Origin: Micromonospora parva | GTDB taxonomy: Bacteria; Actinomycetota; Actinomycetes; Mycobacteriales; Micromonosporaceae | Assembly (NCBI RefSeq): GCF_000718515.1 | Contig: NZ_JNZS01000027.1 | Location: forward strand, 1-64,000 | Direction of reading: 5' to 3' | DNA: 64,000 nt | Shown here: one piece after another, positions 36,576-53,038 of the stretch | How the letters are laid out: every line of letters starts with the position of its first letter | Numbering within the stretch: position 1 is the stretch's first letter | Notes under the pieces: generated by a model | The model's input: the letters and a program-made list of their open reading frames with translations, nothing else | Told to the model about the DNA's origin: nothing | Database searches by the model: none | Position numbers and translations under genes: made by a program

Positions 36576-36697
36576 GGTAGAGCCGGTAATCGGCTGATCG
36601 CCAGACGTGCGCCCGGCCGCCACTGCGGCGGCGCCGCTCGGCCAACTGCCGGGTCGGACAGCTCCGCAACGTCGCTCAGCCGCAGGAGGTGTGGACG

Positions 36698-38263
36698 ATG
36701 CCCATGCTCTCGGTCTTCGATCCTCGGCACACTGTCGCTCCCCCGGGATACAGCCGCTGGCTCATCCCAACCGCGGCACTGGCTGTGCACGTGTGCATCG
36801 GTCAGGTCTACGCGACGAGTGTCTACAAGAACTCCCTCATCGCGCACTTCGACAGCAGCCAGACGGCGATCGGGGCGATCTTCAGCATCGCCATCGTCAT
36901 GCTGGGTTCGTCCGCCGCGGTGGGTGGCCGTTGGGTGGAAAAGAACGGGCCGCGCCGGGCGATGTTCGCCTCCGCCTGCTTCTGGGCCACCGGGTTCCTG
37001 GTCGGCGCGCTCGGCATCGCGACGCAACAACTCTGGCTGCTCTACCTCGGATACGGCGTCATCGGCGGCATCGGGCTCGGCATCGGCTACATCTCACCCG
37101 TCTCGACACTGATCAAGTGGTTCCCGGACCGCCCCGGCCTGGCCACCGGGCTGGCCATCATGGGGTTCGGCGGTGGCGCCCTGGTCGCCGGCCCGCTCGC
37201 GCGCCAACTGCTCTCCCTCTACGACTCCGGCTACAACCCCGACAACCCGGCCGCCGTGGCGTCGGGCAGCGCCCTCGTGGCGCTCTTCGTCACGTTCGGC
37301 ATCGGGTATTTCGTGATCATGATGTTCGGCCCGTTCAACGTCCGGGTTCCGGCACCGGACTGGCGGCCCGCCGGGTTCGACCCGGCGAGCGTTGCCGCCA
37401 AACCTCTGGTGACGACGGCGAGCGTGTCGGCGTCGAACGCGGTGCGTACCCGGTCGTTCTGGTTGCTGTGGATCGTGCTGTTCTGCAACGTCACCGCGGG
37501 CATCGGCATCCTGGAGCAGGCCAGCCCGATGATCCAGGACTTCTTCCGGGACAACGGGACCGCCACCACGGTCTCGGTGTCGGCGGCGGCCGGCTTCGTG
37601 GGGGTGCTGTCGCTGTTCAACATGGCGGGCCGGTTCGTCTGGTCCACGACGTCCGACCTCATCGGCCGCAAGCCCATCTACATGGTCTACCTCGGCGTCG
37701 GCATGGTGTTGTACCTGCTGCTCGCCGTGGCCGGGCACTCCGCGACAGCGGTCTTCGTGCTGATCGCCGCCGCGATCATCTCCTTCTACGGCGGTGGCTT
37801 CGCCACCATGCCGGCCTACCTGCGTGACCTGTTCGGCACCTTCCAGGTCGGGGCGATCCACGGCCGGATCCTCACCGCCTGGTCGGCCGCGGGTGTCGCC
37901 GGCCCGCTGATCGTCAACGGGATCCTCGACACGCAGGGCAAGCCCGGCACACTCACCGCGGCGGCGTACCGGCCCGCGCTGTTCACCATGGTCGGCGTCC
38001 TCGCCATCGGGTTCATCGCGAACCTGCTGGTCCGTTCGGTGCCCGAGCGGTTCCACGAACCAAACCGGGGGCCGACGTCGCCCGTGGCGAAGGCGACCAT
38101 CACCGAACCGGTGGCCATCGGGCCGCAGAGCCAGCCGCCCGCGCCGCCACGAGTCGGTAGCCAGACCGGACGACTGTGGTTGTCGTGGCTGCTGGTCGCG
38201 GTGCTCCTCGGGTACGGCATCGTCCAGACCGCCATCACCGCCGCGAAGCTGTTCACCGGCTGA
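36698..38263 (+). CDS. OFA-family (oxalate/formate antiporter type) MFS transporter
   Basis: This 521-residue, 12-helix MFS protein shows OFA family traits: GYSRWLIPTAALAVHVCIGQVYATSVYK at the first helix, GGIGLGIGYISPVSTLIKWFPDR, and a late extra-long cytoplasmic segment before a final helix. OFA members move small carboxylates such as oxalate, formate, lactate or pyruvate. ATG at 36698 has a perfect AGGAGG 8 bases upstream, so expression should be high. The convergent gene beyond the shared terminator starts the formate dehydrogenase cluster, so formate or a related acid is an attractive substrate, by inference. Confidence 0.9.
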   Translation: MPMLSVFDPRHTVAPPGYSRWLIPTAALAVHVCIGQVYATSVYKNSLIAHFDSSQTAIGAIFSIAIVMLGSSAAVGGRWVEKNGPRRAMFASACFWATGFLVGALGIATQQLWLLYLGYGVIGGIGLGIGYISPVSTLIKWFPDRPGLATGLAIMGFGGGALVAGPLARQLLSLYDSGYNPDNPAAVASGSALVALFVTFGIGYFVIMMFGPFNVRVPAPDWRPAGFDPASVAAKPLVTTASVSASNAVRTRSFWLLWIVLFCNVTAGIGILEQASPMIQDFFRDNGTATTVSVSAAAGFVGVLSLFNMAGRFVWSTTSDLIGRKPIYMVYLGVGMVLYLLLAVAGHSATAVFVLIAAAIISFYGGGFATMPAYLRDLFGTFQVGAIHGRILTAWSAAGVAGPLIVNGILDTQGKPGTLTAAAYRPALFTMVGVLAIGFIANLLVRSVPERFHEPNRGPTSPVAKATITEPVAIGPQSQPPAPPRVGSQTGRLWLSWLLVAVLLGYGIVQTAITAAKLFTG

Positions 38264-38355: not shown

Positions 38356-39429
38356 TCAGAGTGGGGTCGTCGACCGGCTCTCGTCGAGCCGCTCCCGCTG
38401 GGGCACGACCGTGTACTTCGGATCGCGCGCCGAGACCCGTCCCGCCTCGAAGACACCGAACCGGGTCGCGATCGACGACGCCACCAGGGCGGCGCCGGAG
38501 AGCGCCGACAGGATCCGGCTGCGTCGACTGACCAGTGCGGCGACCGTGCCCACTGTCAGCAGGACGCGTCCCGCCTTGACCAGCCGGCCGCTGCGTCCGT
38601 GCGTGTAGGGCTCACCGGTGAGGCCCTGCCGCTCCAGATGGTGCCCCCCACCGAACTCGACGGCCGCCGCGGCCACTGCGAGTCGCCGTAGTGGGGCGGT
38701 CTCCGAGGGCGGTGCCGCGATCAGTCCGACCCCGGACGCGGCGGCGAGCGCGCTGCCGGCGAAGACGAACGGCAGCGAGGGGTAGGCGTCGTGCCAGGAC
38801 GGCACGGCCGTGTCGGCGAGCAGCACCCCGGTGTACGTCGCCAGCGCCGGTGCCGTGGCCGCGGCGGCCAGTCCGGCGACGTTCCCGACGGGCGGTCCGA
38901 TCCGGCGGGCGAGGCCGAGCACACCATGCCGCGGGAGCAGCGGTGCGAGTTCGGCGACCGCTGCCACGCCTGCGAGGGGCCCGAACGCGGCGAGGATCCA
39001 GGTGCCGACCGACATCGGCGAGGTCACCTTGGCCACCCGGAGCATGTGATGGAACCGGGTCGGCCGGCCGAGGTCGTGGATCAGCAGGTACGTGCTGGCG
39101 GCGACGCCGCCGAGCGCCGTCCACCGGCCCACCTTGCGCAGCCCCGGTCGTCCGGTCAGCTGGGCGCCCGCGCCGACCAGCGCGCTTCCGGCGGCGAGGC
39201 CACCGGTGAACAGGTAGCCGGCGATGTCGTACTTCCACACCGGCGGCTTCAGCACGGGCCGGCCGTAGTAGGAGGCGAAGTCGGCCGGCGGCACGGTGAG
39301 CTGCTCACCGCCGTCGCCGCGTCGCCGGCCGGGCTGCCGGTGGCGCTTCCCGTCGGGCTGGTCGAGGCCGGCCTGGAACTCGCGGAACCGGGCGCCGACC
39401 GACTCGTTCGATGGTGTCTCGTCGGTCAT
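38356..39429 (-). CDS. nrfD: NrfD-type membrane subunit of formate dehydrogenase
   Basis: This 357-residue protein has a 65-residue hydrophilic N terminus and about eight to nine helices of the NrfD/PsrC fold (KYDIAGYLFTGGLAAGSAL, HDLGRPTRFHHMLRVAKVTSPM). NrfD subunits anchor iron-sulfur proteins and pass electrons to menaquinone. ATG at 39429 overlaps the beta-subunit stop (ATGA). It is the last gene of the formate dehydrogenase operon and replaces the cytochrome b subunit (FdnI) of E. coli. Confidence 0.9.
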   Translation of the reverse strand: MTDETPSNESVGARFREFQAGLDQPDGKRHRQPGRRRGDGGEQLTVPPADFASYYGRPVLKPPVWKYDIAGYLFTGGLAAGSALVGAGAQLTGRPGLRKVGRWTALGGVAASTYLLIHDLGRPTRFHHMLRVAKVTSPMSVGTWILAAFGPLAGVAAVAELAPLLPRHGVLGLARRIGPPVGNVAGLAAAATAPALATYTGVLLADTAVPSWHDAYPSLPFVFAGSALAAASGVGLIAAPPSETAPLRRLAVAAAAVEFGGGHHLERQGLTGEPYTHGRSGRLVKAGRVLLTVGTVAALVSRRSRILSALSGAALVASSIATRFGVFEAGRVSARDPKYTVVPQRERLDESRSTTPL

Positions 39430-40398
39430 TGCCGCCTACCCAGGAACGCGACCGCCGCGGCGACCGCCATCGTCATCGCCGCCAGGCCGGCGCGTTTCCA
39501 CATGGCCGGTAGGTCGCGGGTGGTCACCACCGGGTCGGGTGGCAGGCCGTACACCTCGGGCTCGTCCAGGAGCAGGAAGAACGCCCCGTCCCCACCCACA
39601 CCGTCGTTCGGGTCGTGCCCGTACAGTCGCGCCTCCGCAACCCCCCGCTCGTGCAGCGTCGCCACCCGCGCGGCAGCCCGCTCCCGCAACTCGTCCAGTT
39701 CCCCGTACTGGATCGACTCGGTCGGACACGCCTGCGCACACGCCGGCGTCATCCCCACACCCAACCGGTCGTAGCACAACGTGCACTTCCACGCCCGACC
39801 GCTGGTCAATCACCCCGTACGGGCACGCGGAGATGCAGTAACCGCAGCCGTTGCAGATGTCCTCCTGCACCACCACCGTCCCGAACTCCGTCCGGAACAA
39901 CGAACCCGTCGGACACACGTCCAGACACGCCGCATGGGTGCAGTGCTTACAGACATCCGACATCATCAACCACCGGAAATCCGTCCGACCCTCCGCACCC
40001 GAACCCCGCCCCGGCGGCTGCGCACCCGGCATCCCCAGAAACTCCGGCCCACCCGACATCCGCGCCGCCGCCCCCGGCGAACCGGTGGGCAGACCCGGAT
40101 CCGTACCGGTGTCGGTCTCGGTACGCGCGCCGACGGCAGCCGTGAGCGGACTGACCGCCGGCCCGTCCGGGTTGTCCTCGAACGCCGCAGTCGCCCAGCC
40201 CACCGAGCGGGGCTGTTCGATGAACGCGACGTGCCGCCACGAGTTCGCGGTCAACGCACCCGTGTTGTCGTACGACATGCCCAGCAGGTCGAGGCCACTC
40301 TCCGGCACACCGTTCCACTCCTTGCAGGCCACCTCACACGCCTTGCAACCGATACAGACGCTGGTATCGGTGAAGAACCCCATCCGCGTCGTGACCAT
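39426..40398 (-). pseudogene. fdhB: Formate dehydrogenase beta (four-cluster ferredoxin) subunit, frameshifted
   Basis: The coding sequence holds all four cysteine clusters of FdnH-like electron-transfer subunits: CIGCKACEVACKEWN, CKHCTHAACLDVCPTGS, CNGCGYCISACPYGV and CTLCYDRLGVGMTPACAQACP, then a C-terminal membrane helix. The first three are in one frame and the fourth is in another; the shift lies at about 39795-39812, between VIDQR and GRAWKCTL. As written, the first frame runs on as nonsense to 39436. It is either a recent inactivating change or a sequencing error; no obvious slippery site for programmed shifting is seen. The start (ATG 40398 or 40383) has no ribosome site because the frame is continuous with the alpha subunit. 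A low-complexity insert separates clusters 1 and 2. Confidence 0.8.
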
Positions 40399-43300
40399 CG
40401 GTGGGTAACGGTGCACGAGGTTCCCCGACCGCCGTCGGTAGTCGACGACGAGGTCCAACAGCTCCTGGCCTCTGGGGCGTCGTCCGGGCCGGACGTCGCA
40501 CGTGCCGACCTTGCTCTCCTGAATCAGGACGTTGGGGTCGAGGGTGATGCCGAACAGGTCGTTGGCCGAGTCGCCGGTCACCAGACCCTCAAAACCGAAG
40601 TGGTACGGCAACCAGACCTGGTGGATGATCCGGCCGTCCACCCGCAACGGCGTGACACGGTCGGTCACCAGCACCTTCGCCTCCACCGACGCGCGGCTGG
40701 TCACCAGATGGGCCCAGCCCAGATGGCTCAGCCCTCGCAGGGCAGCCAGCTCCGGCGACACCTCGACGAACATCTCGGGCTGCAACTCGGCCAACGGCGA
40801 CACGTTGCGGCTCATCGCGCCGGCGGTGTGGTGCTCGGTGAGCCGGCTGACAGTGAACACGTACGGGAACACCTGACTGTGCTCCTGCGGCGGGCTCGGA
40901 TTCAACGTGTTGATCGGGTGCGTGTAGACCTTGCGGGTCGGGTTGGCCTGCTGCCGGTAGAGCGGGTTACGCACCGGCGACTCCACCGGCTCGTAGTGGG
41001 TCGGCAGGGGCCCGTCCAGGACGCCGGTGGGCGCGTACAGCCAACCCTTGCCGTCGCCCTGAAGGATGAACGGGTCGTCGCCGGCGATGCCCGCCACGCC
41101 TGCGGCGTCGTGCTCCGGTCGGTAGGACGGCGGTTTGGTCTTCTCGAAGTCCGGCACGTCGTAACCGGTCCACTCGCCCTTGTCCGCGTCCCACCACACG
41201 TAGCGTTTGCGCTCACTCCATGGGTTGCCGTCCGGGTCGGCCGAGGCCCGGTTGTAGAGGATGCGCCGGTTCGCCGGCCACGCCCAACCCCACTCGGGCG
41301 CCACCAGTGACTGCTGCGCGCCGGGTTTGCGCCGGGCGGCCTGGTTGACGCCGTCCGCGTACACCCCGGTGTAGATCCAACAGCCGCCGACGGTGGAGCC
41401 GTCGTCCTTCATCTCGGTGAACGACGCCAGCGGCCGGCCGGTGGCCACGTCGTACCCGTTGATCTCGCGCAGCACCGCCTCGGCGCTCGGCTCCGCGTAC
41501 GGACCGTGCGTGGGATAGTCCCAGGCGAGGTCGAGCAACGCCCGGTCGCGCGGCATGGTCGACGCCGCCAGCCGTTCCCGGATGATGCGCCCGAGGTGGT
41601 AGAAGAACCACAGCTCGGAGCGGGCGTCGCCCGGCGGCTCGACGGCCTTCTCCCGCCACTGCAACAACCGCTGCGTCTGCGTGAACGTGCCTTCCTTCTC
41701 CACATGCGACGCCGCGGGCAGGAAGAACACCTCGGTACGGCACTCCTCGGGCACGATCTCCCCGGTCTCGATCTCCGGCGCGTTCTTCCAGAACGTGGCG
41801 CTTTCGATCTCGAACAGGTCCCGGACGACGAGCCAGTCGAGGTTGGCCATGCCGAGGCGCTGGGCCCGACCGTGGGCCGACCCGACGGCCGGGTTCTGCC
41901 CGAGCAGGAAGTACCCCTTGATCTTCCCGTCGATCATGTTCAGCACCTGCTGGTAGGTGCCGTGATCACCGGTCATCCGCGGCATGTAGCCGTAGCAGAA
42001 GTCGTTCTCGGCGGTGGCGGCATCTCCCCAGTACGCCTTGAGCAGGTTGACGCCGTAGGTGCGGGCGTTGCCCCAGAACCCCTTCTGCCCGGGGTGCGCG
42101 ATGCTGTCCACCCACTCGGTCAGGGTGGGGTGGTCGGCGTGGTGCGGCATCGGCAGGTAACCGGGCAGCAGGTTGAACAGTGTCGGGATGTCGGTCGACC
42201 CCTGGATGCTGGCGTGCCCGCGCAGGGCCATCACCCCGCCGCCCGGGCGACCCATGTTGCCCAGCAACAGCTGGATGATCGCGCCAGTTCGGATGTACTG
42301 CACACCCACGCTGTGCTGCGTCCACCCCACCGAGTAGACGAGCATGCCGGTGCGGTCCCGGCCGGAGTTCTGCGTCCAGGCCTGGGCCAGTTCGAGGAAC
42401 TTCTCCTGTGGGATGCCGCAGACCCGTTCCACCATCTCCGGCGTGTAGCGGGCGTAGTGCCGCTTGAGGATCTGGTAGACGCAGCGCGGGTGCTGCAACG
42501 TCTCGTCACGCTCGGTCTCGCCGCCGACGGGGGCGCCGTGTGACTCGTGTTCCAGCCCGGCCCCGGTCTCCCGCTGCGTCTCGGTGTCCCGGGTCGTCTG
42601 GTTCTGGCCTTGGCCCTCGTAGCGCCAACTGGTCTGGTCGTACGAGGCGTTCTCCTCCTGGAAACCGGAGAAGAGCCCGTGCATGTCCTCGGTGTCGACG
42701 AACTCCTCGGTCACGATCGTCGCGGCGTTGGTGTAGGAGACCACGTACTCCCGGAAGTCCAGTTCGTTGTCGAGGATGTAGCGGATCACCCCGCCGAGCA
42801 GCGCGATGTCGGTGCCCGCCCGGATCGGCAGGTACGCGTCGGCCAGCGCGCTGGTGCGGGTGAAGCGAGGGTCGATGTGGAAGACCTTCGCCCCCCGGCG
42901 CTTGGCCTCCATCACCCACTGGAAACCCACCGGGTGCGCCTCGGCCATGTTCGAACCCTGGATGACGATGACGTCGGAGTTCGACAGGTCCTGCTGGTAC
43001 TGGGTGGCGCCGCCACGACCGAAGCTGGTCCCCAGACCGGGGACGGTGGAGGAGTGTCAAATACGAGCCTGATTCTCGATCTGAAGCGCCCCCATCGCGG
43101 TGAACAACTTCTTGATCAGGTAGTTCTCCTCGTTGTCGAGCGTCGCCCCGCCCAGACTGGAGATGCCCAGCGTCCGGTTGAGCGGTCGTCCCTCGGCGTC
43201 GACGTCCTCCCAGGTTTCGTCCCGCGCGGCCAGGACCCGATCGGCGATCATGTTCATCGCGGTGTCGAGGTCCAGGTCCTCCCACTCGGTGCTGTACGGG

Positions 43301-43626
43301 CGGCGGTAGCGCACGGTGGTCTGCCGCAGCGGGCTGGTCACCAGGCTCTTGCTCGCCGAACCCTTCGGGCAGAGCCGACCCCGGGAGATCGGGCTGTCCG
43401 GATCGCCCTCGATCTGACTGACCTGCCCGTCCTTGACGAACACCCGCTGACCACACCCCACCGCGCAGTACGGGCACACCGACCGCGCCACGCTGTCAGC
43501 GGTATCGGTACGGGCAGTCAGCGCGCGGGACCCGTCCGACTTCGCGGCGGCACCCCGGCCCAGCGGGTCCGTGCCGGTGAGCTGGCGGTACACCGGCCAA
43601 CCCGCGAACCAGCTGCGCACCCCCAT
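40399..43626 (-). CDS. fdhA: Selenocysteine-containing formate dehydrogenase alpha subunit
   Basis: This molybdopterin oxidoreductase of about 1075 residues oxidises formate to carbon dioxide. A 4Fe-4S site has C51, C54, C58 and C86 (CPYCAVGCGQ, RLCPKG). Codon 190 is UGA (43059-43057) in ENQARI-U-HSSTVPGLG, exactly where FdnG-type enzymes have selenocysteine; the same frame continues with GRGGATQ, SNMAEAHPVGFQWV and the full catalytic and molybdopterin-binding domains. A matching SECIS hairpin follows. The ATG at 43626 has GGGAAGG 7 bases upstream. There is no stop before the beta subunit, so an alpha-beta fusion may be made. A charged low-complexity insert lies at about residues 360-395. selA, selB, selC and selD are not in the window. 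Translated as stop, UGA would kill the enzyme. Confidence 0.93.
43028..43059 (-). promoter_or_regulatory. Bacterial SECIS element with UGA selenocysteine codon
   Basis: Read on the minus strand, UGA (43059-43057) is followed after 12 bases by stem GTCCCC (43044-43039), loop GGTCT (43038-43034) and stem GGGGAC (43033-43028). The apical GGUCU loop and its distance of 18 bases from the UGA equal those of E. coli fdhF, whose loop is bound by SelB. The lower stem is weak here. Confidence 0.85.
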
Positions 43627-43733
43627 CGCCGCACCTTCCCGACCAATCCGCCATATATGAACACTCTGACGGTAGATGAGGTGCCGGTCCGGTCGCAGCG
43701 GGATCACCAACAGTCATGCCTGCCCCGGCCGTC

Positions 43734-48251: not shown

Positions 48252-51200
48252 ATGGTTCGCGGGGAACGCCGATGGTTCACATCAGCGCTGGCGGCGGTCG
48301 GCGCGTTTGCCGCGTCGTCCACGCTGGTGGTTGTGGCGTCAAGCCAACCCGCATTGGCGACCGTGCCGGGCCTGCCCGGAACGCCTCAGCCCGGCACCCC
48401 GATTTTCACTGAGGACTTTTCCAACGAGAGCGCGGCTGCGGCGCCGATTCGCATTGGTTCCTACACCGGATCGCCAGGTTCCGTTTACGTGCCGGGGCCG
48501 GGTGGCAGCGGCGCGGACGGTGAGACCTATACGGCGGATCCCGCGTGGAGCCCCGGCGCGGGCGCGTGCAACGGCTGGATCATGCGTCAGACGTCGCCGC
48601 TGCCGCCCAACGGTGGCGACCCGCCGGTCACCAACAACGACCAGTGCGGTCGTTCAGACGCATGGGGCCGGCTACAGGAGATGGCCCGTGACATGGGGCT
48701 GTTTCAGGGGCAGAGCCCCGGGGAGGCCGCCACGAACCAGGTACTCACCGAGTACACCAACAGCGTGACCGGCGCGCAGCTTCCCGGATACCAACTGGAG
48801 ACCGACAACAACACCATTCCGGCGATCGGTGGCCACTTCTACTCGGTCTCGGCGATCTTCGCTGAGAGGAACTGCACCGTTCCGTCCGCCCAGCGGGCGC
48901 GACTTCGGTTCGAGCTGCTTCTCAACGGCGTCCCGACGGTGCTCGCACAGAACCTGAGCCCATGCACGGATCCCGGCGCCGAGATCGTCAACAACACCTG
49001 GATAGCCAAGCTGCAATCGTTGGCACTGCAATTGTCGGTGGCTGATACACCGACCCTGGGCCTGCGCCTCTACAACGCGACCGCAACGGGCATCGGCAAC
49101 GACGTCGCGTTCGACCTTCCGCAGATCGTCGACGTCACCCCCCAACTCGACAAGGCTTTCAACCCCACCACCATCGGGCAGGGGCAGACGTCCACGCTGA
49201 CGTTCACCATCACCAACACCGACGATCTGCAAGCCAAGAACGGGATGAGTTTCACCGACACCCTTCCCGCCAATGTGACCGCCACCGGGGTCAACAGCAC
49301 CACGTGCTCGGACGCCACTGTGACCGCTCCCGCCGGCGCCACGTCCGTCGACTTCGCCGGCAACCTGGACCTGAACGTCGCCTCCTGCACGATCTCCATC
49401 CAGGTGACCAGCACTGTGGTCGGCTCGTACACCAACACCGGATGCGTCGCCCCGGACGGCTCCACGATCCCCGGCTGCGAGAGCAACTTCCCACCATCGT
49501 CGGGATCAACCCGCCCGGCTCCACCACCCTCACCGTCATCCCCACTGTTGACCTCGCTGTGGTGAAGACCGCGTCGCAAAGTCCCTACGTGCCGGGCGCG
49601 CCCTTCTCCTACACGGTGGCAGTGACCAACGGCGGACCGTCCGATGCGGTTGGGGCAACCCTGACCGACCCGCTGCCCGCACCGCTGGCCGGGTTCACCT
49701 GGAGCTGTGAGGCGTCCGCGGGAAGTTCCTGCACCGCGTCCGGCACCGGCAGCATCAACGACACCATCACCGTTCTCGCAGGCGGGACCGTGACGTACAC
49801 GATCAGCGGGACCGTGCCGTCGGGCACCACGGGCGACCTGACCAACACCGCAACGCTCACCCCACCAGACGGCGTCTCGGATCCGGAGTGCACACCGAAC
49901 TGCTCGTCGACGGTCGTGACCCCGGCGACGCTGACGGTGGATCTGGCGGTGGTGAAAACCGCAAACCCGAGCCCGTACGTGCCGGGTGCACCCTTCTCCT
50001 ACACGGTGACAGTGACCAACGGCGGACCGTCCGATGCGGTCGGGGCAACCCTGACCGACCCGCTGCCCGCACCGCTGGCCGGGTTCACCTGGACCTGCGA
50101 GGCGTCCGCCGGCAGTGCGTGCACCGCCTCCGGCACCGGCAGCATCAACGACACCATCACCGTCCTCGCGGGCGGGACCGTGACGTACACGATCAGCGGA
50201 ACCGTGCCCTCCGGAACCAGCGGCGATTTGACCAACACGGCCACGCTCACCCCGCCCACCGGCGCGACTGACCCGGACTGCACCCCGAACTGCTCGTCGG
50301 CTGTGGCCACGCCCGCCGGACCAGTGGTCGACCTGGCCGTCGTGAAGACCGCATCCCCCAACCCATACGTGCCAGGCACGCCGCTGACCTACACGGTGAC
50401 AGTGACCAACGGCGGGCCCTCCGACGCCGTCGGCGCGAACCTGACCGATCCCCTGCCTCCGCCGTTGGCCGAATTCACCTGGACCTGTGCACCATCCCCT
50501 GGCAGCGCGTGCACCGCGTCCGGAACGGGCACCATCAACGACACGATCACCGTCCTCGCGGGCGGAACGGTGACGTACACGATCAGCGGAACGGTCCCGT
50601 CGGGCACCACCGGCGACCTCACCAACACGGCCACTCTCACCCCACCGGAGGGCGTCTCAGATCCGGACTGCACGCCTAGTTGCTCATCGACCGTCGTGAC
50701 TCCGGCGACGCTGACGGTGGATCTGGCGGTGGTCAAGACCGCAAACCCGAGCCCGTATGTTCCGGGCGCGTCCTTCTCCTACGCAGTCACCGTGACCAAC
50801 GGCGGCCCGTCCGACGTCGTCGGCGCGAACCTGACCGACCCGCTGCCCGCACCACTGGCCGGGTTCACCTGGACCTGCGAGCCGTCCGCCGGAAGTTCCT
50901 GCACCGCCTCCGGCACCGGCAGCATCAACGACACCATCACCGTCCCGGCCGGCGGGACGGTGACGTACACGATCAGCGGAACCGTCCCGGCGGGCACCAC
51001 CGGCGACCTGACGAACACCGCAACGCTCACCCCGCCGGAAGGCGTCACCGACCCGGACTGCACACCGAACTGCTCTTCGACAGTGGTCACCCCCGCCGGA
51101 CCAGTGGTCGACCTCGTCGTCGTCAAAACCGCGTCCCCAAGCCCCTACGTGCCGGGCGCAGCCTTCTCCTACACGGTCACCGTCACCAACGGCGGACCCT

Positions 51201-53038
51201 CTGACGCCGTCGGCGCGAACCTGACCGACCCGCTGCCCGCACCACTGGGCGGATTCACCTGGACCTGCGAGCCGTCCGCCGGAAGTTCCTGCACCGCCTC
51301 CGGCACCGGCAGCATCAACGACACCATCACCGTCCCGGCCGGCGGGACAGTGACGTACACGATCAGCGGCACCGTCCCGTCGGGCACCACCGGCGACCTG
51401 ACGAACACCGCAACGCTCACCCCGCCGGAAGGCGTCACCGACCCGGACTGCACACCGAACTGCTCGTCGACCGTCGTGACCCCGGCGGCGCTGACGGTGG
51501 ACCTAGCCGTCGTGAAAACCGCGTCCTCAAGCCCGTACGTGCCGGGTGCACCGCTGACCTACACGGTCACCGTCACCAACGGCGGACCCTCCGACGCCGT
51601 CGGTGCGACAGTGACCGACCCGCTTCCCGCACCCTTGGCCGGGTTCACCTGGACCTGTGCGCCAGCTACCGGAAGTTCCTGCACCGCTTCGGGTACCGGC
51701 ACCATCAACGACACCGTCACCGTCCTCGCCGGTGGGACGGTGACGTACACGATCAGCGGAACGGTGCCGTCCGGCACCACCGGCGATCTGACCAACACCG
51801 CCACCGTCAGCCCACCGGCCGGAGCCTCGGATCCGGAGTGCACTCCGAACTGCTCGTCGACCGTCGTGACGCCGGCTGCCCTGACGGTGGACCTCGCCGT
51901 CGTCAAAACAGCCACCCCGAGCCCCTACGTGCCAGGCGCAGCCTTCTCCTACACAGTGACCGTCAGCAACGGCGGCCCTTCGGACGCGGTCGGCGCGAAT
52001 CTGACCGACCCCCTGGCCGCACCCTTGGCCGGATTCACCTGGACCTGTGTGGCATCCCCCGGCAGCGCGTGCACCGCGTCTGGCACAGGCAACATCAATG
52101 ACAGCATCACCGTCCTCTCGGGCGGGACCGTGACCTACACGATCAGCGGAACCGTGCCCTCCGGCACCACCGGCGACCTCACCAACACCGCCACCCTCAC
52201 CCCACCCCGACGGTGGACCTCGTTGTCGTCAAAACAGCGACACCAAGTCCTTACGTACCAGGCGCAGCCTTCTCCTACACGGTCACGGTGACCAACGGCG
52301 GACCATCCGACGCCGTCGGCGCGAACCTGACCGACCCACTGCCCGCACCACTGGCCGGCTTCACCTGGACCTGTGAAGCGTCCACCGGAAGTTCCTGCAC
52401 CGCGTCCGGGACCGGCACCATCAACGACACGATCACCGTCCTCTCGGGCGGGACCGTGACCTACACGATCAGCGGAACCGTGCCCTCCGGCACCACCGGC
52501 GACCTCACCAACACCGCCACCCTCACCCCAGGCAGTGGTGAAAACCGCAACCCCGAGCCACTACGTGCCAGGTGAACCGGTGACCTTCACAGTGACAGTG
52601 ACCAACCGGGGACCGTCCGACGCGGTCGGCGCGACACTGACCGACCCCCTGCCCGCACCACTGGCCGGATTCACCTGGACCTGCGAACCATCCACCGGAA
52701 GCACCTGCACAACGTCCGGCACCGGTGACATCAACGACACCATCACCGTCCTCGCTGGCGGCACAGTGACCTACACGATCAGCGGAACCGTGCCGAAGGG
52801 CACCGCCGGCGACCTCACCAACACGGCCACCCTCACCCCGCCCACTGGTGTGTCCGACCCGGACTGCACACCGAGCTGCTCCTCGACAGTGGTCCTCACC
52901 GGGCCGGTTCCGCCCATGCCCGTCACGGGTGGACGTCTGACAGCCATCGCCACACTTGGAGCTTCTGTGGCTGCCCTCGGTGTTCTCCTGGTCGGCGGCC
53001 TGGCCCTGATACGCCTACGCACCCGCCGCGAGCCCTGA
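48252..53038 (+). pseudogene. Secreted DUF11-repeat surface protein with sortase-like tail, frame-broken
   Basis: ATG at 48252 (after GGGGGAAA) starts a signal peptide ending QPALA. An N-terminal domain (FTEDFSNESAAAAPIRIGSYTG, to about 49130) resembles lectin-like or jelly-roll adhesin heads. A first beta domain (to about 49490) is followed by nine DUF11-like modules and a tail with MPVTGG, a hydrophobic helix and RTRREP, a variant of the LPxTG sorting signal. Frame breaks occur at about 49489-49492 (a C run one base short), at about 52204 and at about 52530. The last two offset each other, so module 9 is back in the module 1-7 frame. The intact form would be about 1590 residues, probably a cell-wall-anchored stalk or adhesin. 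Sequencing error in repeats cannot be excluded. Confidence 0.8.
49547..52910 (+). repeat. Nine tandem 390-bp modules (130-residue DUF11-like domains)
   Basis: The landmark GTGACSTACACGATCAGCGG recurs at 49790, 50180, 50570, 50960, 51350, 51740, 52130, 52456 and 52766. The first six spacings are exactly 390 bp. The last two are 326 and 310 bp, so 64 and 80 bp are missing at the same place, the linker between TLTPP and VDLAVVKTA. Modules share SPYVPGAxFSYTVTVTNGGP, DPLPAPLAGFTWTC and a cysteine pair CTPNC, and are nearly identical in DNA, pointing to recent expansion by unequal recombination. Confidence 0.95.

Follow-up and report, generated by a model that had tools for sequence, protein, structure and literature searches.

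A predicted selenocysteine codon in one of two formate dehydrogenase alpha subunits of Micromonospora parva, followed by probable assembly errors

Introduction

Formate dehydrogenase (FDH) alpha subunits and SelD are, as stated in an excerpt of PMC5029168, the most widespread bacterial selenoproteins. Among actinomycetes, a selenocysteine (Sec)-containing FDH-O was reported in 2015 from Streptomyces incarnatus NRRL8089, with a SECIS right after the UGA and selABCD nearby (PMC4498112), and a Sec-encoding UGA has been described for the FDH of Amycolatopsis mediterranei (excerpt of PMC4048454). The NCBIfam family NF041513 (formate_DH_Act, type 'exception') covers such alpha subunits. In the partial texts returned by a literature search for selenoprotein together with Micromonospora, no paper was evidently about a Micromonospora selenoprotein.

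Here we analyse a 64-kb stretch of M. parva DNA (64,000 nucleotides, hereafter the window), in which a selenocysteine UGA had been predicted within an FDH gene. The alpha subunit of the window fits NF041513 with no notable difference, and in view of this family and the published actinomycete cases the prediction of a Sec-FDH in the window, though correct, concerns an already known kind of protein. Like S. incarnatus, this genome has a UGA directly followed by a SECIS and sel genes near one Sec-FDH; unlike in S. incarnatus, the window copy and the sel genes lie on different contigs, a second copy on contig C1 adjoins selC-selA-selB, and a third contig carries selD. It is nearly certain, in our judgement, that the window holds a canonical Sec codon in a respiratory-type FDH alpha gene, one of two copies in the genome, and that the defects downstream of it are assembly errors.

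Results

An in-frame UGA in the alpha subunit

The FDH operon of the window contains the following features.

40390–43626, minus strand: fdhA-like alpha subunit, a molybdopterin oxidoreductase with Sec at 190 (Pfam PF00384, PF04879 and PF01568; NF041513).
43057–43059, minus strand: UGA, predicted to be read as selenocysteine, residue 190 (TGA in 80/80 related loci, the best 80 of at least 591).
39438–40389, minus strand: iron-sulfur beta region, in frame with alpha and frameshifted at ~39800 as assembled (ferredoxin domains, DNA alignment, the genome's own paralogue).
38356–39429, minus strand: NrfD-like membrane subunit, gamma (PF03916, 58.4 bits, cut-off 25.8).

The UGA lies in frame between ENQARI and HSSTVPGLGTSFG, with the frame open on both sides; its position at codon 190 after ENQARI, as originally predicted, was confirmed on the minus strand, where it is residue 190 if translation starts at the ATG at 43626. 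Under the standard code the gene is split into two open reading frames (43057–43710 and 39436–42948). NF041513 matched the whole length of the window alpha at 1955.2 bits (cut-off 1400), and across its full length the protein shares 95% identity with its nearest relatives, TGA being its sole internal stop. The gene order alpha, iron-sulfur beta, NrfD-like gamma is present, beta being frameshifted as assembled, probably through an assembly error.

In a comparison of 30 Micromonospora loci, the window's own included, TGA occupies the Sec site in 30/30. These loci were anchored by the pattern TGA-N18-GGTCT, and 0/30 were lost through the anchoring. Codons +1 to +14 after the UGA are nearly frozen at synonymous positions across the 30 loci, a degree of conservation reached by 7 of 1048 sliding windows, its own counted.

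Beside the operon, 36689–38263 on the plus strand encodes an MFS transporter of the oxalate/formate or lactate type (SfMCT 304.7 bits, slightly below the cut-off of 320; OXA tail domain above cut-off), possibly a formate or lactate carrier.

A conserved hairpin follows the UGA

43028–43044, minus strand: SECIS apical hairpin with a 6-bp stem and GGUCU loop (sequence, folding, 81/81 loci including the window).

The hairpin GTCCCC-GGTCT-GGGGAC runs from 43044 to 43028, and the gap between UGA and GGTCT is exactly 18 bases, 6 stem bases among them. Both the hairpin and the 18-base spacing had been claimed beforehand; both were verified on the sequence and are kept in 80/80 of the best relatives. 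The SECIS of E. coli fdhF has the same GGUCU loop and 18-base spacing, while its stem sequence and the architecture of its enzyme differ.

The pattern TGA-N18-GGTCT occurs once in the 64-kb window, against 1.52 matches expected by chance, and its frequency was accordingly rejected as proof of a SECIS. When the first 40 nt were folded, the hairpin was the minimum-energy fold, at a z-score of only −0.46 relative to shuffles; folding energy was likewise rejected as proof, given so weak a score. Folding the 60 nt after the UGA, a check proposed with the original prediction, recovered five of the six hairpin pairs in the centroid, while the minimum-energy fold was a different one. An Rfam search of the window returned nothing at gathering scores. 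Since the pattern count and the fold energy are each unremarkable alone, the significance of the hairpin comes from its context and conservation.

For conservation we turned to a scan of named genomes, from which the best 80 of at least 591 relatives were retained, with identities down to 69%. They come from Micromonospora, Plantactinospora, Actinoplanes, Nocardioides, Cellulomonas, Kineococcus, Amycolatopsis, Mycobacterium and some metagenome bins, and include a few same-strain pairs; the closest named ones belong to Micromonospora. TGA is at the site in 80/80 by protein alignment, followed by N18-GGTCT in 80/80. With the window added, 81/81 have the loop GGTCT and a stem whose six pairs are all standard. 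Covariation is seen at stem pair 18-30, formed by two synonymous third positions, one in a Val and one in a Gly codon, and paired in 81/81 (C-G 61, T-A 11, T-G 5, G-T 3, G-C 1). Its mutual information was reached by 0/2000 shuffles of 34 distinct sequences, a test that overstates independence because the loci are related by descent. Three stem pairs are invariant in every locus and thus uninformative on covariation, and slid stem controls were also fully paired at some positions because the stem sets a C run against a G run.

Selenocysteine machinery and a second Sec-FDH

The genome assembly comprises 7.13 Mb in 87 contigs, with the window on contig C27. A tRNA-Sec gene (selC) scored 72.3 bits at C1:340942-341033, with the anticodon UCA according to ARAGORN. 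Profile searches placed SelA (406 bits) and SelB (257 bits) above their cut-offs and found SelD (379 bits) on contig C25; from its sequence, SelD seems to carry Cys at the usual Sec/Cys site. The C-terminal winged helices of SelB bind the SECIS, and here SelB-wing_3 is over its cut-off and SelB-wing_2 slightly below. All four genes that the original prediction called for are therefore located in the genome, and with selA, selB, selC and selD present its main prediction holds. A tRNA search of the 64-kb window itself found none.

The genome has a second Sec-FDH (C1:343218-346421), 87% identical to the window copy, which is thus one of two paralogues. The UGA of the C1 copy likewise carries N18-GGTCT. 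Downstream of it comes a beta region of ferredoxin type, and then an NrfD-like gene (TIGR03148, 36 bits, under cut-off), selC, selA and selB.

We infer Sec insertion, catalysis and the path of electrons from these genes as follows. SelA and SelD would form Sec-tRNA(Sec) on selC, and SelB would bring it to the ribosome while binding the GGUCU hairpin just 3' of the UGA. Decoding of the UGA would then yield Sec, presumably the residue that ligates Mo/W in the active site, and electrons would pass from formate through alpha, the iron-sulfur beta and the NrfD-like membrane subunits to the membrane.

Upstream of the sel-linked FDH on C1, near the contig end, lies a GC-rich minisatellite of period 22 and ~15 copies (L052, 6750–7074), and in several other drafts a contig ends shortly upstream of an FDH. 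Ribosomal RNA was considered as what lies behind the contig ends upstream of sel-linked FDH, and dropped after searches of L052, L055 and L056 gave no match at gathering scores. Short repeats ~88-91 bases apart occur upstream of the copy in genome G002; a tandem-repeat search upstream of the FDH in G074 found none.

Most sampled Micromonospora genomes carry a Sec-FDH with TGA

At a threshold of E 1e-50 or better, 93 of the 101 Micromonospora genomes sampled have an FDH match. Among the 128 matches listed, 117 cover residue 190, and TGA is present in all 117 (a hand tally of presence, not position); one listed match in G030 also has TAG and one in G091 also TAA. G024 and G047 are the two genomes with FDH matches but none covering residue 190, and 26 of the 101 have at least two listed matches that cover it.

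A tRNA-Sec above cut-off was found in 140/151 genomes. By hand count 138 of these score at least 62.7 bits; the remaining two are 47.2-bit matches, a type that also appears elsewhere as a second match. FDH and strong selC co-occur (Fisher p = 0.0005, hand counts): across the 101 genomes, 86 have both, 7 FDH only, 3 selC only and 5 neither. Among the seven genomes with FDH and without strong selC, six are assemblies of at least 530 contigs; in the remaining one, G094 (40 contigs), the FDH lies at the end of a contig. The genomes with selC and without FDH at threshold are G038, G042 and G073. The selenoprotein reading put forward earlier is supported at the level of sequence by the machinery genes and by TGA across the genus, and the survey confirms a known trait: a Sec-FDH with a GGUCU SECIS occurs in most sampled Micromonospora and across many actinobacteria.

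Genome G118 carries two strong tRNA-Sec genes, C1:1026618 (73.2 bits) and C1:2700439 (70.9 bits).

An apparent alpha-beta fusion and beta frameshift

The frame had been predicted to run on for ~885 codons after the UGA. It is indeed open; here it extends for 1206 codons, since the assembly connects alpha and beta in one frame. In 29/30 of the genus loci alpha ends 897–918 codons after Sec, the window being the exception. DNA alignment with relatives traces the fusion to the absence of 111 bases (the alpha tail with its stop and the beta start), and the beta frameshift to the absence of 11 bases inside beta at ~39800.

40388–40390, minus strand: breakpoint with 111 bases absent; a 100-base stretch identical to C1 begins at 40388 (alignments with relatives and the C1 copy).
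39798–39801, minus strand: breakpoint with 11 bases absent; a 99-base stretch identical to C1 begins at 39800 (alignments with relatives and the C1 copy).

The C1 copy is gapped at both places as well. On the right its breakpoints coincide with those of the window, to the base at the second place and to within two bases at the first. The left ends differ: C1 lacks 133 alignment columns at the first place and 29 bases at the second, where the window lacks 111 and 11. Measured against the corresponding copy in G002, with that copy's own gaps subtracted, the first C1 gap is 119 bases. The next-longest stretch common to the window and C1 copies, of 98 bases, shows no such gap.

Two further genomes bear on these breakpoints. 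The four longest stretches on which the two G024 copies agree fully measure 100, 99, 99 and 99 bases; three are followed by a loss of sequence compared with G002, and both contigs end at the fourth. G002, assembled as a single contig, has 102 bases common to its copies; there the window-type copy retains the alpha stop, and its beta is open. In our interpretation, this 99-base pattern is the mark that a de Bruijn assembler using words of ~99 bases would be expected to leave. The missing 111-base piece, sought elsewhere in the genome's own assembly, gave only a 25-base partial match (92%), so the case for misassembly is built on the breakpoints, not on a recovered piece. On this sequence evidence it is very probable that the fusion and the frameshift are artefacts: the presence of two Sec-FDH paralogues would have led to misassembly, and this to an apparent alpha-beta fusion and beta frameshift.

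The same defects, as assembled, could be taken as decay. Translation would then truly end at the UGA, and the window copy would be a pseudogene with further damage downstream, the C1 copy doing the work, and a second Sec-FDH is indeed available in the genome. We consider this highly improbable: the UGA and hairpin are kept in 80/80 of the best relatives, and the whole of alpha matches its nearest relatives at 95% identity, the TGA being the only stop in it. The C1 gaps, moreover, reach the same right-hand points within two bases from different left ends, and real deletions would need several independent events, in both copies, ending at the edges of identical stretches of at least 99 bases. 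We give a similarly very low probability to a genuine in-frame fusion in which the window copy would be a selenoenzyme undergoing remodelling or decay on its own, apart from the sel-linked copy. A functional in-frame fusion of both subunits, for which one could cite that 111 is divisible by three and the frame remains open, is extremely improbable, as the joined beta is frameshifted and 11 bases short, alpha stays open beyond its stop in 0/29 other loci, and in each copy the breakpoint falls at the border of sequence identical between the paralogues.

Misassembly between paralogues seems to have a wider reach: two similar Sec-FDH operons per genome appear to yield false fusions and frameshifts in draft assemblies, and in one species' draft the Sec codon is missing from both copies, seemingly from the same cause. 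That draft is G024, in which both FDH copies (L053, near 2462, and L054, near 734) lack sequence from the codon before Sec onward; these gaps are probably misassembly, since each comes after 99 bases that the two copies share without a difference. Anyone surveying such drafts for Sec loss or pseudogenes should first check for misassembly.

Other loci also vary downstream of alpha. In L046 (G014, a draft of 890 contigs) the two beta motifs lie in different frames, so its beta looks frameshifted. In L041, L043 and L045 (G043, G052 and G086) the two beta motifs were not found in ~1.5 kb after alpha, and alpha may therefore stand without beta there; for L041, the alignment downstream of alpha shows nothing of beta beyond a short beta-like start.

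Elsewhere in the window, 49304–53038 on the plus strand encodes a long protein of near-identical repeats (VDLAVVKTA...SYTVTVTNGGPSDAVGA...), which we take to resemble DUF11-type surface repeats.
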